Below, piece after piece: positions 29,492-39,342 of a stretch of DNA of 64,000 nt. The notes beneath the pieces were generated by a model that was not told the origin of the DNA, ran no database searches, and saw only the letters and a list, made by a program, of their open reading frames with translations. A program made the translations under genes and the position numbers. The stretch comes from an uncultured Carboxylicivirga sp. Lineage in GTDB: Bacteria; Bacteroidota; Bacteroidia; Bacteroidales; Marinilabiliaceae. The DNA lies in the NCBI GenBank assembly GCA_947503525.1, contig CANNEA010000001.1, positions 558,001 through 622,000 on the forward strand, read 5' to 3'. Each line of letters opens with the position of its first letter. Within the stretch, counting starts at the first letter, position 1.

Positions 29492-30469
29492 TTACTTATT
29501 ATATCTGTCAAAATCTTTTTTTAAGCCTTCATATAACCAATTGGCAAGGGCTTGTCTATTATCGGCAATTACGAAACGTTGTTGATCCCGATAATTCTGG
29601 ATATTTCCTAATTCTACAAACACCGAAACCGGAGTTGTATTGCGTAGGATGTATAAATTCCTTTGGCTTACGGTTCCTTCAAAACCTCTTGATGGTTGAT
29701 GTTTATTGTACTTTTCGTCAAAAGTATCACGTAAGGTGTTAGCCAGTACTTTGCCATTCTTACTTTTCTTGTAATGATAGAAAAACACATCAATTTGATT
29801 TCGCTTACTTCTACTATCCACATGAAGGATGATGCATCTGCGATATTTCTCTGTATCCTTATTGAATAATTGATTGACCTTTTTAGTGCGTTGAGCTAAA
29901 CGATCGATTTGTTTCAAAGGAATAGTTTGCCCCTGACAGGTTTCGTGGTTGTCGTATTTTAAGATCTTTTCATCGCGTATGCCATCATCTTCATCCTGGA
30001 TGATTAGATGTACTTTTGCGCCGTTCTCTTCCAGTTTTTTAGCCAGTCGTAAAGTGGTATCGTAGGCGTATTCGTCTTCATGAAGTTCATGATTCCCATA
30101 TTTACCAATTGCACCCGGATCAGGACCACCATGGCCGGCAACCAGATAGAAAACGGTGCCTTTCATATCAGAACTTTCCAGAGGAAAAGATGCTCTTTCT
30201 TTACCGTATAGGGCATTCGTCAATGTGACTTCCTTTGAAGGGATAAGGTAATTGACATGCATTAGCAAACTATTGTTCTTTCCGAAATGGCCTTTGTTTA
30301 AAATAAGAAACTCATCCAGATCATTCTGAGGCGAAAGTTTATGTCGGAGCATAAAAGCATTTAGGCCTTCTCCTTTTTTAGGTCTGCTTTTTTGTAATTC
30401 TTTTGATTGAGCAAACACCAGCATTGGCATTAGCAGAAATATATATATGATGGTTAGTTTTATATTCAT
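29492..30469 (-). CDS. N-acetylmuramoyl-L-alanine amidase, exported
   Basis: A 325-residue amidase_3-type zinc hydrolase. I start at the ATG at 30469, which gives a clean Sec signal (MNIKLTIIYIFLLMPMLVFA) cut before the mature QSKELQ. A region of about 75 residues precedes the catalytic domain. Zinc and catalytic residues appear in AGHGGPDPGA, ELHEDEYAYD, IILHVDSRS and FVELGN. Long insertions between the second His and the last Glu are present. It should cut the bond between muramic acid and the stem peptide in the periplasm. Confidence 0.87.
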   Translation of the reverse strand: MNIKLTIIYIFLLMPMLVFAQSKELQKSRPKKGEGLNAFMLRHKLSPQNDLDEFLILNKGHFGKNNSLLMHVNYLIPSKEVTLTNALYGKERASFPLESSDMKGTVFYLVAGHGGPDPGAIGKYGNHELHEDEYAYDTTLRLAKKLEENGAKVHLIIQDEDDGIRDEKILKYDNHETCQGQTIPLKQIDRLAQRTKKVNQLFNKDTEKYRRCIILHVDSRSKRNQIDVFFYHYKKSKNGKVLANTLRDTFDEKYNKHQPSRGFEGTVSQRNLYILRNTTPVSVFVELGNIQNYRDQQRFVIADNRQALANWLYEGLKKDFDRYNK

Positions 30470-30587
30470 AGGGCACAAAAATAGAGTTTTTCATAAATTC
30501 ACTCTAATATTGTATACAGCTTATGCTTTAATTATTTATCAAATTTGTTTAATGTGGTGTAAGTGATTCGTTTTTTAATGTAAATCA

Positions 30588-32251: not shown

Positions 32252-32308
32252 AACTAAAAAAATAGTTGAAAAACTAAATGATTAGTTGATGAAACGAAAT
32301 GAATAGTT
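32252..32308 (+). promoter_or_regulatory. three tandem operator dyads at the blaI promoter
   Basis: Two exact dyads AACTA-N6-TAGTT lie at 32252-32267 and 32272-32287, with a third copy (AACGA-N6-TAGTT) at 32293-32308. Their spacing is 20 and 21 bases, two helical turns, so all would be on one face of the DNA. The second overlaps the -33 box and the third runs up to the -7 box. The position directly before a BlaI-type repressor gene suggests autoregulation. The link to BlaI is an inference. Confidence 0.65.
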
Positions 32309-32315: not shown

Positions 32316-32356
32316 TGTCGTCAACAGAATTCATGGTATATTAAAACGTAGTGCTA

Positions 32357-32728
32357 ATGGCAACAAAACGACTGACAAAACGAGAAGAAGACGTCATGAA
32401 AATCCTTTGGGACGCAGGTAAAGGTTTTGTTAAAGATCTCTTACTAAAGCATCCTGATCCAAAACCTCATTATAATACTTTTAGTACCATTATAAGAGGC
32501 TTGGAAGAAAAGGGATTTGTTGGCCATAATTCTTATGGAAACTCTCACGAATATTTTCCGGCAATAAGTAAGGAGGAGTATCGTAAGTTGTTTATTAAGA
32601 ATGTAGTTTCCGATTATTTTGGTTCATCCTATAAAAATGTAGTCTCCTTTTTTGTGAAGGAGGAGAAACTAAATGTGGAAGACCTCAAGGAAATGATCGA
32701 ATTAATTGAACAAGAAAATAAGAAGTGA
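32357..32728 (+). CDS. blaI: BlaI/MecI/CopY-family transcriptional repressor
   Basis: A 123-residue winged-helix repressor from the ATG at 32357; an upstream GTG two codons earlier is possible. KRLTKREEDVMKILWDAGKG is the first helix region and PHYNTFSTIIRGLEEKGFVG the recognition helix and wing. The C-terminal dimerisation part is present, and the repressor-cleavage site region of the family would lie there. It overlaps the downstream M56 sensor gene by four bases (ATGA), the usual BlaI-BlaR arrangement: sensor activation leads to repressor destruction. In Bacteroidota these pairs control many targets besides beta-lactamase. Confidence 0.9.
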   Translation: MATKRLTKREEDVMKILWDAGKGFVKDLLLKHPDPKPHYNTFSTIIRGLEEKGFVGHNSYGNSHEYFPAISKEEYRKLFIKNVVSDYFGSSYKNVVSFFVKEEKLNVEDLKEMIELIEQENKK

Positions 32729-35064
32729 TGACTTATTTTTTCGAATGGCAAATAAAGGCAGGAATTATTATTGCACTAATGGTATTGGTGTATGTGATTT
32801 TTCTGTCGAAAGATAATTTATTTAAGCGAAACAGGTTTTGGATGCTTAGTACATTGCTTATACCATGGCTAATGCCTTTTGTAGCTATGCCTGTTTGGTT
32901 AAAACATCTTTTTTATCAACCTAAAGCCAGTACCGAAATTACATCTTTTATAATACAGGAAACAGGGCCGCAAGCTTATCTTGAACCTGTAGTGCAAAGC
33001 TGGGATTGGGCTATGATAGGATTTGGAATCTATTTGATTCTAACCCTGTTTTTTTTAGTACGAATGCTTTGGGGCTATTCGATTATATATGTGTTGAAGC
33101 GGAATGCATTGAGAAGCAGATATAAGGGACTTAGGGTTAATTGGCTTAATGATAAGGAAATCAATCCATTTTCATTTTATCGTTCCATATTTATTCCGAA
33201 GGCTTTTAAAGAAAAGCCGACATGTCATCATATTCTTGAACATGAAAAAGCCCACTGTAAACAGTGGCATTCTGTTGACATTTCATTGGCAGAAATAGTA
33301 TTGCTAGTGCAATGGTGGAATCCGTTTGCGTGGTGGTTGAGGCAATTAATTGCTCAAAACCATGAATTCTGTGTTGACAAGGCGGTCATGCAAACTTCGT
33401 CCGAACCTAAGCACTACCAATATTCATTAATGAACTTTTTGCCAGGTAGCAAAGGTCTGAAGTTGGTTAACAACTTTAGCCAAAGTCTAATCAAAAAACG
33501 AATAATCATGATGAATAATTCAAAACAAAATAACTTCCTTCTTCATCTTAAGAGTATAAGCGTAGCAGCTGTTACACTTATAACCTTATTGGCTTTTACT
33601 AACCCTGATAAAACTGAGAAGGAAGTGAAGCCTAAGGAAATAACGGAAATTAATTCAACAAGAGATCTTCAAAAGTTTATTGCAAGTAATATTATTTACC
33701 CCGCTGAAGCACGTCAAAATAATATTGAAGGAGAAGTCGTGGCTAATATTTCAGTTAGTAACAAAGGAAAAATTGGACAGCCGAAAATAGGTGTTGCTAA
33801 AAGTGGGGACATCGTTAAGATTGATGAAGTTGTGGTAGTGGCTTATGATTGGCCGGATGCAAAGTCTGAGTCATCAAGTAAATCAAACGAGCTTTTGGAT
33901 ATGGAAGTCGAAAGTGTATTATCGAAACTGCCAACTATTAGGGATGTAAACCTTCATGGAAAAACGGTTGAGTTGAAAGTTAAGTTTGTGTTGCAGGAGG
34001 GTAAGAAAGCAATAAAGAAAGAACCTTTGCTTGTGTTAAATAAGGAAGTGTTTCATGGTGACATTAAAGAACTTGATTCTGTGGATATTCATAGCATGAA
34101 TGTGATCAAAGGGCAGGCCGCGATTGAAAAATATGGTGATAAAGCCAAGGATGGAGTAGTTGAAATTTTCACGAAGGAGTATGCCATTAAAAATGGAATG
34201 CCTGATATAGTGCCTTTGGAATCTGATGGGCTAAAAACTCGAACAGTCAGTGTTGAAGGTGTTGGCGTAGCTAGTGTTGCGACTAGTGGTAAGGCTAAGG
34301 ATGAGGTTGTAGTTGTAGGGTATGGAATCAAAAAAAAGGGCGATGTAAATCTTTTTATAAAAGATAAAAATAAAGGCAAACAGCCTCTGTTTATTGTTGA
34401 TGGGATTGAGGTTGATCAGGAGTATGTTAATAATTTAAATGAAGACAATATTAAGTCTATTACAGTTTTAAAGGATAGGTCTGCAAGTGACTTATATGGT
34501 GACAAGGCTAAAAATGGTGTAGTTAAAATTTATACAAAGCATGATAGTGAAAAATCACTCACCACTGTTGTAGGATACCCTTCACGAAATACGTTAGCGT
34601 ATAGTAAAGATACTGGTAGTCCGATCATTATTAAGGACGGAGAAGAATATGAAGGAGAACTTCAGGATATTCATCCGGACGACCTGAAGAGTATGAATAT
34701 TTTGAAGGGACAAGCTGCCATTGCCAAATACGGTGACAAGGCCAAGAATGGAGCAATTGAAATTTACACGAAGGGGTTCGAATATAAGCTTAAACCAGAT
34801 CATAAAATGGATAGTGTTGTGGTGATAGGTTATGGCAAATATAAATCTGAAGACGGGGAGGGGTCTCATTTCAGAATAAAGGGTAATTTAAATGGACAAG
34901 AGCCAGTATACTATATAGATGGCGAAGAATCTGATCGAGAGGAAGTGGATCTTCTTGAAAAAGATGGTATTGAAGCTATATCAGTATTAAAAGATAAATC
35001 AGCTACCGATTTATATGGTGACAAGGGTAAGAATGGCGTTGTCTTAATCGAAACAAAAAAATAG
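32725..35064 (+). CDS. M56 (BlaR1-like) sensor metalloprotease with TonB-C and four SusC-plug-like modules
   Basis: A 779-residue fusion. Residues about 1-290 form a BlaR1-type membrane protease with three or four helices and the zinc motif HEKAH at 173-177. After a last membrane helix (about 275-292) comes a TonB C-terminal-like region (about 311-395: YPAEARQNNIEGEVVANIS). Then four modules each end in a near-identical box: EKYGDKAKDGVVEIFTK near 466-484, DLYGDKAKNGVVKIYTK near 589-606, AKYGDKAKNGAIEIYTK near 665-684, DLYGDKGKNGVVLIETK at the end. Two are led by VVVVGYG or VVVIGYG motifs. This is the signature of the plug domain of SusC-type TonB receptors. No beta-lactam-binding domain is present. 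It forms an operon with blaI. Confidence 0.85.
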   Translation: MMTYFFEWQIKAGIIIALMVLVYVIFLSKDNLFKRNRFWMLSTLLIPWLMPFVAMPVWLKHLFYQPKASTEITSFIIQETGPQAYLEPVVQSWDWAMIGFGIYLILTLFFLVRMLWGYSIIYVLKRNALRSRYKGLRVNWLNDKEINPFSFYRSIFIPKAFKEKPTCHHILEHEKAHCKQWHSVDISLAEIVLLVQWWNPFAWWLRQLIAQNHEFCVDKAVMQTSSEPKHYQYSLMNFLPGSKGLKLVNNFSQSLIKKRIIMMNNSKQNNFLLHLKSISVAAVTLITLLAFTNPDKTEKEVKPKEITEINSTRDLQKFIASNIIYPAEARQNNIEGEVVANISVSNKGKIGQPKIGVAKSGDIVKIDEVVVVAYDWPDAKSESSSKSNELLDMEVESVLSKLPTIRDVNLHGKTVELKVKFVLQEGKKAIKKEPLLVLNKEVFHGDIKELDSVDIHSMNVIKGQAAIEKYGDKAKDGVVEIFTKEYAIKNGMPDIVPLESDGLKTRTVSVEGVGVASVATSGKAKDEVVVVGYGIKKKGDVNLFIKDKNKGKQPLFIVDGIEVDQEYVNNLNEDNIKSITVLKDRSASDLYGDKAKNGVVKIYTKHDSEKSLTTVVGYPSRNTLAYSKDTGSPIIIKDGEEYEGELQDIHPDDLKSMNILKGQAAIAKYGDKAKNGAIEIYTKGFEYKLKPDHKMDSVVVIGYGKYKSEDGEGSHFRIKGNLNGQEPVYYIDGEESDREEVDLLEKDGIEAISVLKDKSATDLYGDKGKNGVVLIETKK

Positions 35065-38928: not shown

Positions 38929-39342
38929 TTAAAGCTCGGCCCAAATTCGTGCCAAAGAAAATCCGGGCGCATCAATTTTTAAATCCAGAAAATAACCAAA
39001 GGGTGTTTGTGCAGTTTCAATATCAGCATTTTTCATCCGTACCTGAGCAGCATCAAATACTGATTTGGTAAAATCTACACTAGCTTTTGATTCTCCTAAA
39101 TGAGCAAATGAATGCAAGACAATTGAGCGTGCATTATTTTTACGTAGGGCCCATTTTAAGTGATTCACCAATTTTTTCTCCCGACTTCTTACATCTTTTT
39201 CTTCATCAGAGGTTTCTACTTGTATACAGGCCAAAAGGCAGTTTTCAAAGGTTTTGGCTTTGCCCGGATCAGGTGCTTCATCCAAATTTTTAATGGCAGG
39301 AGTATAAGAAAATGATTTGGTATAAAAGATGAGTACACGCAT
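38929..39342 (-). CDS. freestanding archaeal-type ThrRS editing domain protein
   Basis: A 137-residue protein that looks like the N-terminal editing domain of archaeal threonyl-tRNA synthetases (D-aminoacyl-tRNA deacylase-like fold), with nothing else attached. Recognisable elements are MRVLIFYTKSFSY at the start, SIVLHSFAHLGESKAS at 74-88 and the TPFGYFLDLKI block at 113-123, close to PFGYYKAFKI of archaeal enzymes. The archaeal domain removes serine from Ser-tRNA-Thr. By eye, the catalytic lysine of the PFGYYK motif is Leu119 here, and the later glutamate near GHPLAEL is Arg, so activity may differ. It stands alone; this genome's ThrRS has its own editing domain. Homologous stand-alone genes exist in other bacteria. 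Confidence 0.72.
   Translation of the reverse strand: MRVLIFYTKSFSYTPAIKNLDEAPDPGKAKTFENCLLACIQVETSDEEKDVRSREKKLVNHLKWALRKNNARSIVLHSFAHLGESKASVDFTKSVFDAAQVRMKNADIETAQTPFGYFLDLKIDAPGFSLARIWAEL

Follow-up and report, generated by a model that had tools for sequence, protein, structure and literature searches.

What does a BlaR1-type sensor protease respond to when its tail consists of parts of a nutrient-import system? This question is raised by a gene in a 64,000-nucleotide stretch of DNA from an uncultured Carboxylicivirga sp. (Bacteroidota; GenBank assembly GCA_947503525.1, contig CANNEA010000001.1, positions 558,001 to 622,000), hereafter called the window. The open reading frame (ORF) at 32725–35064 (+) encodes a 779-residue BlaR1-type M56 protease and lies behind the gene for a BlaI repressor. 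Its tail contains a TonB C-terminal-like domain (TonB_C), TonB boxes, and four copies of one half of a SusC plug, here called half-plugs. In Bacteroidota, a few TonB systems serve the dozens of SusCD receptors on which these bacteria depend, and how the cells measure the load on the shared Ton system is, to our knowledge, an open question. A tail made of pieces of the import machinery suggests that the protein senses how busy that machinery is, and we consider it likely that the protein, with its parts derived from the Ton system, is the sensor of a BlaI switch. As the best of several readings, we tentatively propose that TonB_C and a TonB box form a latch, which the Ton system would open to turn the protease onto BlaI. 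A sensor with both parts would make the measurement of Ton load testable. Loci outside the window are cited by our own numbers (L002 and so on).

Anatomy of the sensor protein

The preliminary description of the window, made from the sequence alone, had called the ORF a BlaR1-type M56 protease with a TonB-C-like region, and both parts were matched by Pfam. The start of the gene overlaps the stop of blaI. The membrane and protease domain (32752–33591, +) was delimited by hydropathy and by motif residues in alignments, and Peptidase_M56 was matched at residues 155–263 (E = 1.2e-9, 38 bits). Hydrophobic segments were found at residues 10–28, 41–59, 97–115, and 271–289, and none beyond residue 300. 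This pattern agrees with a BlaR1-like layout in which the tail is external, by analogy with the BlaR1 topology given in passages of PMC9834060, which served as the template. The protease motifs are HEKAH (residues 173–177) and NHEFCVD (residues 212–218), and H173, E174, H177, E214, and D218 were unchanged across 60 aligned M56 proteins and across 15 aligned relatives. The protein has the HEXXH motif, the downstream Glu/Asp, and the adjoining BlaI-type repressor gene of the BlaR1/MecR1 type, and it may work like BlaR1. In contrast to BlaR1 and MecR1, its M56 score is weak, and Pfam found no C-terminal penicillin-binding sensor domain anywhere in the 779 residues, so we class it as an M56 sensor and not as a beta-lactam sensor. 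Penicillin sensing was dismissed, because no such domain occurred in this protein or in the 115 M56 proteins surveyed below (phylum sample and own genome).

The TonB_C domain (33658–33999, +; residues about 312–425) was recognized by Pfam, AlphaFold, Foldseek, and a profile search. The Pfam match is partial (residues 323–355, E = 5.9e-5), and its 23.9 bits lie slightly below the cut-off of 24.6. The profile of the M56-TonB_C part matched Helicobacter pylori TonB at E = 0.0011. When the predicted fold was compared with TonB C-terminal domains in Foldseek, the target-normalized template-modelling score (TMt) was 0.49–0.67, with a root-mean-square deviation (rmsd) of about 4–7 Å; HasB scored 0.33. 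The predicted fold is thus that of a TonB C-terminal domain. The layout of a TonB transducer, with a single N-terminal anchor and a long periplasm-spanning linker, is absent, since the sensor has four hydrophobic segments and then only about 22 residues before TonB_C. From this geometry alone, the short linker makes it unlikely that TonB_C reaches the outer membrane, and by the same geometric reasoning the four modules could extend outward.

Within TonB_C lies a TonB-box-like strand, IDEVVVVAY (33820–33846, +; residues 366–374), which was found by motif scan, tail alignment, and AlphaFold. TonB_C with this embedded box was recognizable in 15 of 16 aligned tails (variants in L092, L094, L097, L102, L103, and L104), the tail of L105 being without TonB_C. 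In an AlphaFold model of the window tail aligned with 15 relatives (mean predicted local distance difference test score, pLDDT, 67; predicted template-modelling score, pTM, 0.32), the TonB_C blocks reached a pLDDT of 83–93, with a dip to 62–72 behind the embedded box. Two further TonB boxes, DEVVVVGYG (34300–34326, +; residues 526–534) and DSVVVIGYG (34810–34836, +; residues 696–704), were identified by their likeness to SusC boxes. The preliminary description had read their VVVVGYG-like leads, which start at residues 528 and 698, as the entry motif of SusC plugs; both are present and match the SusC TonB box, but the third lead, VVVVAY at residue 369 within TonB_C, had been missed. In sequence, all three stretches fit the set of SusC TonB boxes, and we regard them as putative binding sites of TonB. 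Among the SusC frames of the window's own genome, 11 of the 15 examined have TonB boxes. According to passages of PMC7782687, the TonB box of Bt1763 was mapped as 82-DEVVVTG-88, and deletion or replacement of VDEVVV caused defects in growth on levan that resembled those of a SusD deletion.

The four modules are located at 34006–34179 (residues 428–485; box scan, AlphaFold, and our own profile), 34363–34542 (residues 547–606; Pfam and own profile), 34603–34773 (residues 627–683; AlphaFold and own profile), and 34885–35061 (residues 721–779, the C terminus of the protein; NCBIfam and own profile), all on the + strand. Their YG boxes, four as had been noted before, begin at residues 470, 591, 669, and 764. 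Pfam matched Plug in three stretches of the protein (E = 1.6e-15), and the SusC/RagA signature TIGR04057 of NCBIfam matched four (E = 7.9e-33). Because the best Plug stretch covers only positions 40–107 of the 107 in the profile, we interpret the repeats as C-terminal halves of a SusC plug. The distance from box to YG motif is 63–66 residues here, compared with about 106–117 in the SusC frames of the same genome. A complete plug with a beta-barrel, as in SusC, was not found, and no barrel family was reported by Pfam or NCBIfam. In the AlphaFold model, the four modules are alike in secondary structure, with blocks mostly at pLDDT 61–88 and linkers largely <50. Foldseek matched the modules to SusC/RagA plugs, and the four best-fitting rows had an rmsd of 1.6–1.7 Å over 52–73 columns with 33–48% identity; the remaining SusC rows fitted worse, and no match to the window tail reached E ≤ 0.001. 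These two results indicate that the half-plugs have the predicted fold of a plug. The earlier proposal of plug-like modules thus holds for the likeness to SusC/RagA plugs, but only the C-terminal halves are present. The further statement that the tail copies receptor parts agrees with the receptor and TonB pieces recognized here, whereas the suggested sensing of SusD-like proteins was unsupported.

Modules that are receptor fragments both in sequence and in predicted fold could also imitate SusC plugs in the unfolded state, in competition for the chaperones or proteases of the periplasm, so that the sensor would read receptor assembly as an outer-membrane-protein stress signal. We consider this very unlikely. 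The modules are predicted to be ordered, the homologues with naked C-terminal boxes described below have no half-plug match, and no link to a chaperone was found in the neighbourhood, the only place where one was sought.

M56 tails across Bacteroidota

PF05569 was searched in 118 genomes of the phylum and gave a match in 83, above the cut-off in 62. Our own profile collected 121 M56 ORFs, and a stricter motif gave 44. The survey comprises 115 M56 proteins above the Pfam cut-off among the matches listed, including four from the window's own genome; six short ORFs were dropped. Pfam assigned TonB_C to the tails of 46, Plug to 9 (E ≤ 0.001), CarbopepD_reg_2 to 8, and ExbD to 3, and rarer tails were M23 (2), Amidase_3 (2), and POTRA (1). 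None of the 115 matched a transpeptidase or penicillin-binding family in Pfam. Together with the 46 TonB_C tails, this indicates that a Ton-type tail is common in this phylum, and the preliminary statement that a penicillin-binding domain is the usual end of BlaR1 sensors fails here. M56-TonB_C fusions were reportedly described in a survey of the TonB family from 2007. The window sensor differs from other such fusions in the box inside TonB_C, the four half-plugs, and the two further boxes. The co-occurrence of M56 and plug domains, proposed earlier as a check, was found in 18 of the 115 proteins with our own half-plug profile but in only the 9 mentioned above with Pfam Plug; our profile is tuned to the window family, because it was built from the modules of the window protein and its relatives. 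A junction of M56 with a plug or TonB box was not described in the titles and abstract openings searched, a set that left subscription papers mostly outside.

The four M56 tails of the own genome are those of the window protein, L002 (ExbD-like), L003 (NTE-like, i.e., resembling the N-terminal extension of SusC receptors, plus TonB_C), and L004. L002 (499–2463, −), the second M56 sensor of this genome, has a tail that matches ExbD/TolR (PF02472, E = 7.8e-7), another part of the Ton system. The tail of L004 is read from its translated frame as a putative M23 peptidase, and one protein of the surveyed set containing L004 matches M23. Other arrangements were also observed. L201 (1011–3725, −) combines M56, an NTE-like region, a TonB box, two TonB_C domains, and two half-plugs, and its C terminus is a type IX secretion sorting domain, which is odd for an inner-membrane protein. 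In the relatives L045 and L048, the order is M56, NTE-like region, TonB box, half-plug, and TonB_C, i.e., a SusC-like N terminus before TonB_C. L294, also in the own genome, appears from its translated frame to fuse a von Willebrand-like region to TonB_C.

The number of half-plugs varies from 2 to 6 among the relatives. The half-plug as an essential element was weakened as a candidate, because one family keeps the boxes without plugs and the Marinifilaceae homologues, about 427 residues long, stop after TonB_C. On a FastTree tree, for which the program flags long branches, the half-plug label requires at least 20 changes, 10 of them forced by starred branches, which indicates that the tails have often been rebuilt. 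Half-plugs and TonB_C were not associated (26 of 41 M56 proteins versus 94 of 155; p = 0.86). The unconserved half-plug number and this lack of association are what would be expected if half-plugs and TonB_C had been recruited by domain shuffling for another ligand, for example one of the cell wall or envelope, and not for Ton sensing. The mosaic of M56 tails, which also includes M23, Amidase_3, ExbD, POTRA, and carboxypeptidase-like domains, and the presence of an amidase gene close to the operon in 13 of 19 regions from relatives favor the same explanation. So does L016 (1387–2028, +) of the own genome, whose 213 residues comprise an apparent signal peptide, TonB_C (Pfam), and a half-plug-like end but no protease; the order of its domains is as in the M56 proteins L186 and L204. 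L016 matches query residues 304–490 and has the YG box, but Pfam reported no Plug domain in it. It is a partial instance of what the preliminary description had named as a refutation of its reading, namely, identical tails in proteins that have neither a membrane protease nor a signalling role. Nevertheless, TonB_C, the TonB box, the plug half, the NTE-like region, and ExbD are all parts of one machine, and one family retains the box motif without a plug, so we regard shuffling without Ton sensing as rather unlikely.

Boxes, TonB_C, and the proposed latch

In the latch that we tentatively favor, TonB_C, held near the inner membrane by its short linker, would take up a TonB box, either from its own chain or from a neighbouring sensor, as an additional beta-strand and thereby keep the protease at rest. 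The latch would open when one of its partners is competed away by TonB itself or by the free TonB boxes on loaded receptors. This movement would activate the cytosolic protease, BlaI would be cut, and the operon would be derepressed; the half-plugs may present boxes or add contacts. A comparable displacement has been proposed for Staphylococcus aureus BlaR1, in which, according to passages of PMC9834060, the ligand would displace the internal loop EL1 from the sensor pocket.

The free boxes at the ends of homologues bear on this proposal. When named genomes were scanned with the M56-TonB_C part, 80 of 181 loci were retained, with 83 M56 frames, 78 of them complete; 77 of the 83 have a BlaI neighbour, and the nearest named homologues belong to Carboxylicivirga, Marinilabiliaceae. 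A box lies within the last 25 residues of 14 of the 78 complete homologues, e.g., PENAVVVVGYGSK, and none of these 14 has a half-plug match. The corresponding count averaged 0.12 and never exceeded 2 when the ends were shuffled (500 rounds), and it averaged 2.8, with a maximum of 8, in random 25-residue windows from the same tails. The core VVGY columns were conserved in 14–15 of 15 rows, inside a variable linker, and L039, from the window's own family, likewise ends in EVIVVGY. In the AlphaFold model of the L238 tail (mean pLDDT 84), the naked C-terminal box is a DSSP strand (residues 258–262) with a pLDDT of about 70, next to a linker of about 60. A DSSP strand requires a bonded partner, and in this model the TonB_C sheets are the likely one. 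The L238 tail holds TonB C-terminal domains (best Foldseek match 6i97_D, E = 1.2e-5, rmsd 1.7 Å). The AlphaFold docking of loop EL1 in BlaR1, given in part of PMC9834060, has a comparable pLDDT of 60–75.

TonB_C occurred in 40 of 43 box-bearing M56 proteins and in 80 of 153 without a box (n = 196; Fisher p = 2.9e-7, uncorrected for kinship), where the 43 were defined by a loose motif and came mostly from a set chosen for likeness to the window protein. No box was found in the 13 protease-free TonB_C frames of the own genome and five box-bearing genomes. This check covered 30 loci, of which 5 had no readable TonB_C frame, and the rows left over repeated frames already read; only the 0 of 13 is informative, because the five genomes had been chosen for their box-bearing M56 proteins. 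Boxes and half-plugs copy the receptor parts that TonB engages, and the naked boxes at C termini, being free ends, lend themselves to binding in trans. These features would also suit a bait, which the cell's own energized TonB binds and pulls in trans, so that the sensor reads idle TonB while its own TonB_C serves to dimerize or space the protein. Such a bait would leave unexplained why box and TonB_C are paired in 40 of 43 cases and why a box is embedded as a strand in TonB_C, and we judge it somewhat improbable.

Several observations weigh against the latch. A box-like tail motif is rare among the surveyed proteins (5 of 115, including the window protein) and C-terminal in none of them. All 14 naked-box homologues are Dysgonomonadaceae, and thus a single origin is likely. 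After correction for kinship, the association of box and TonB_C was not significant (independent pairs 2.8 for and 0.1 opposite on average, median p = 0.25), and that of half-plug and box changed from p = 4.6e-4 to a median p of 1. Of the 120 TonB_C-bearing M56 proteins, 80 have no box. The model of the window tail assigns a pLDDT of about 28–47 to the blocks that contain the boxes preceding modules 2 and 4. In the closest relative (L021/L092), no box precedes the plugs, and the sole box-like stretch is DEVLVVAY in TonB_C. In the PDB, the M56-TonB_C profile reached TonB, whereas no chain of BlaR1 was matched at E ≤ 1, and the operator searches described below found no target beyond blaI-M56 operons.

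A wider claim, that the sensor proteases of Bacteroidota with a TonB_C and TonB box latch act as a global meter of Ton load (loaded receptors or engaged TonB) with repressor proteolysis as the output, appears doubtful. A sensor that holds both TonB_C and TonB boxes would also point to a function for the many M56-BlaI pairs in this phylum that lack a penicillin-binding tail. The proposed circuit can be compared with known systems. It shares with BlaR1-BlaI and MecR1-MecI the M56 protease with HEXXH, the BlaI-type repressor with a P1' Phe, palindromic candidate operators, and a tail that is presumably outside the cytoplasm in both, but TonB_C, TonB boxes, and half-plugs replace the penicillin-binding domain. 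With SusC/RagA receptors, which consist of NTE, TonB box, plug, and barrel, it has the TonB box and the C-terminal plug half in common, whereas the barrel and the N-terminal plug half are absent and four half-plugs are joined to an M56 protease. Cell-surface signalling through STN domains and anti-sigma factors, mentioned in part of PMC7782687, likewise would report the state of a receptor to transcription; here, in contrast, the receptor parts lie within an inner-membrane protein, and the output would be repressor cleavage.

Repressor, operators, and neighbouring genes

The BlaI/MecI-type repressor gene (32351–32728, +; 125 residues as listed, with the in-frame ATG at 32357 as the likelier start) carries the Penicillinase_R domain (PF03965, E = 4.1e-28). 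The protein aligns with S. aureus BlaI (1sd4), and the two share the Phe at the P1' site, Phe102 of the cut site given in passages of PMC9834060. This Phe is present in all 21 aligned BlaI rows. The M56 protease probably destroys its partner repressor, and the repressor proteolysis named in the preliminary description is consistent in sequence with the BlaI partner and the catalytic motifs.

Upstream of blaI, at 32252–32308, lie three tandem palindromes, which are candidate BlaI operators: AACTA-N6-TAGTT at 32252 and 32272, and AACGA-N6-TAGTT at 32293. They presumably resemble the mec operator. A triplet with steps of 20–21 bases and 0–1 mismatch per site lies upstream of blaI in 15 of 16 relatives (L104 has one site), compared with about 0.2 sites in each shuffled upstream region; exact sites alone occur in just 6 of the 16. 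The consensus is AAC(T/G)A-N6-T(A/C)GTT. In the own genome, tandem ACTA-N6-TAGT sites with 0–1 mismatch were found only before the blaI-M56 operons of the window, L003, and L004; with up to 3 mismatches, this search gave a total of 78 against 40 for the reversed control, which is known as a total only. With the wider pattern of the genus, the exact tandem occurred solely at this operon in four of four genomes, and weaker copies lay partly at other M56 operons (totals of 15, 12, 6, and 7 against 10, 8, 5, and 7 for the control). Because the candidate operators lie at its own operon, the circuit looks self-regulated. Single exact sites gave no target common to five genomes, which had been chosen for exact sites, in a search that did not include AACGA-type singles. 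A single operator-like site, AACTAATTAAATAGTA, was observed around position 1501 of L319, 230 nt before a SusC-like frame, and is a possible target in trans. In the own genome, one operator-like 16-mer appears three times, 426 bases apart, in L122, L126, and L129, an apparent tandem repeat.

BlaI directly precedes the M56 gene in 16 of 19 relatives' regions (L090–L105, the first of them truncated at the end of its contig). L106 is an M56 fragment at a contig end with no blaI in view, and in L107 and L108, the regions of L045 and L048, blaI is flanked by two M56 genes. A second M56 copy follows the first in L091 and L095. The relatives' BlaI proteins are 79–91% identical to that of the window; in the 15 main long copies, the M56 part is 42–75% and the TonB_C region 19–59% identical to the window sensor, with lower values in cut or second copies. 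Because the downstream genes vary, we take the operon to consist of blaI and the sensor. A downstream bestrophin gene was dismissed as a target, since, among the regions with downstream sequence, only the window and L092 (two broken frames) have it behind the operon. A lead on physiology comes from Porphyromonas gingivalis: a table in PMC10470040 of genes whose methylation and expression change jointly with hemin includes a BlaI-family gene next to an M56 gene. The amidase gene mentioned above belongs to Amidase_3 (window 29492–30478, −), is divergent from the operon region, and faces blaI directly in L091 and L103. Finally, window 38929–39342 (−) encodes a stand-alone archaeal-type threonyl-tRNA synthetase editing domain (PF08915, E = 3.3e-31) in a Bacteroidota genome, and a similar gene is present in 12 of the 19 relatives' regions.

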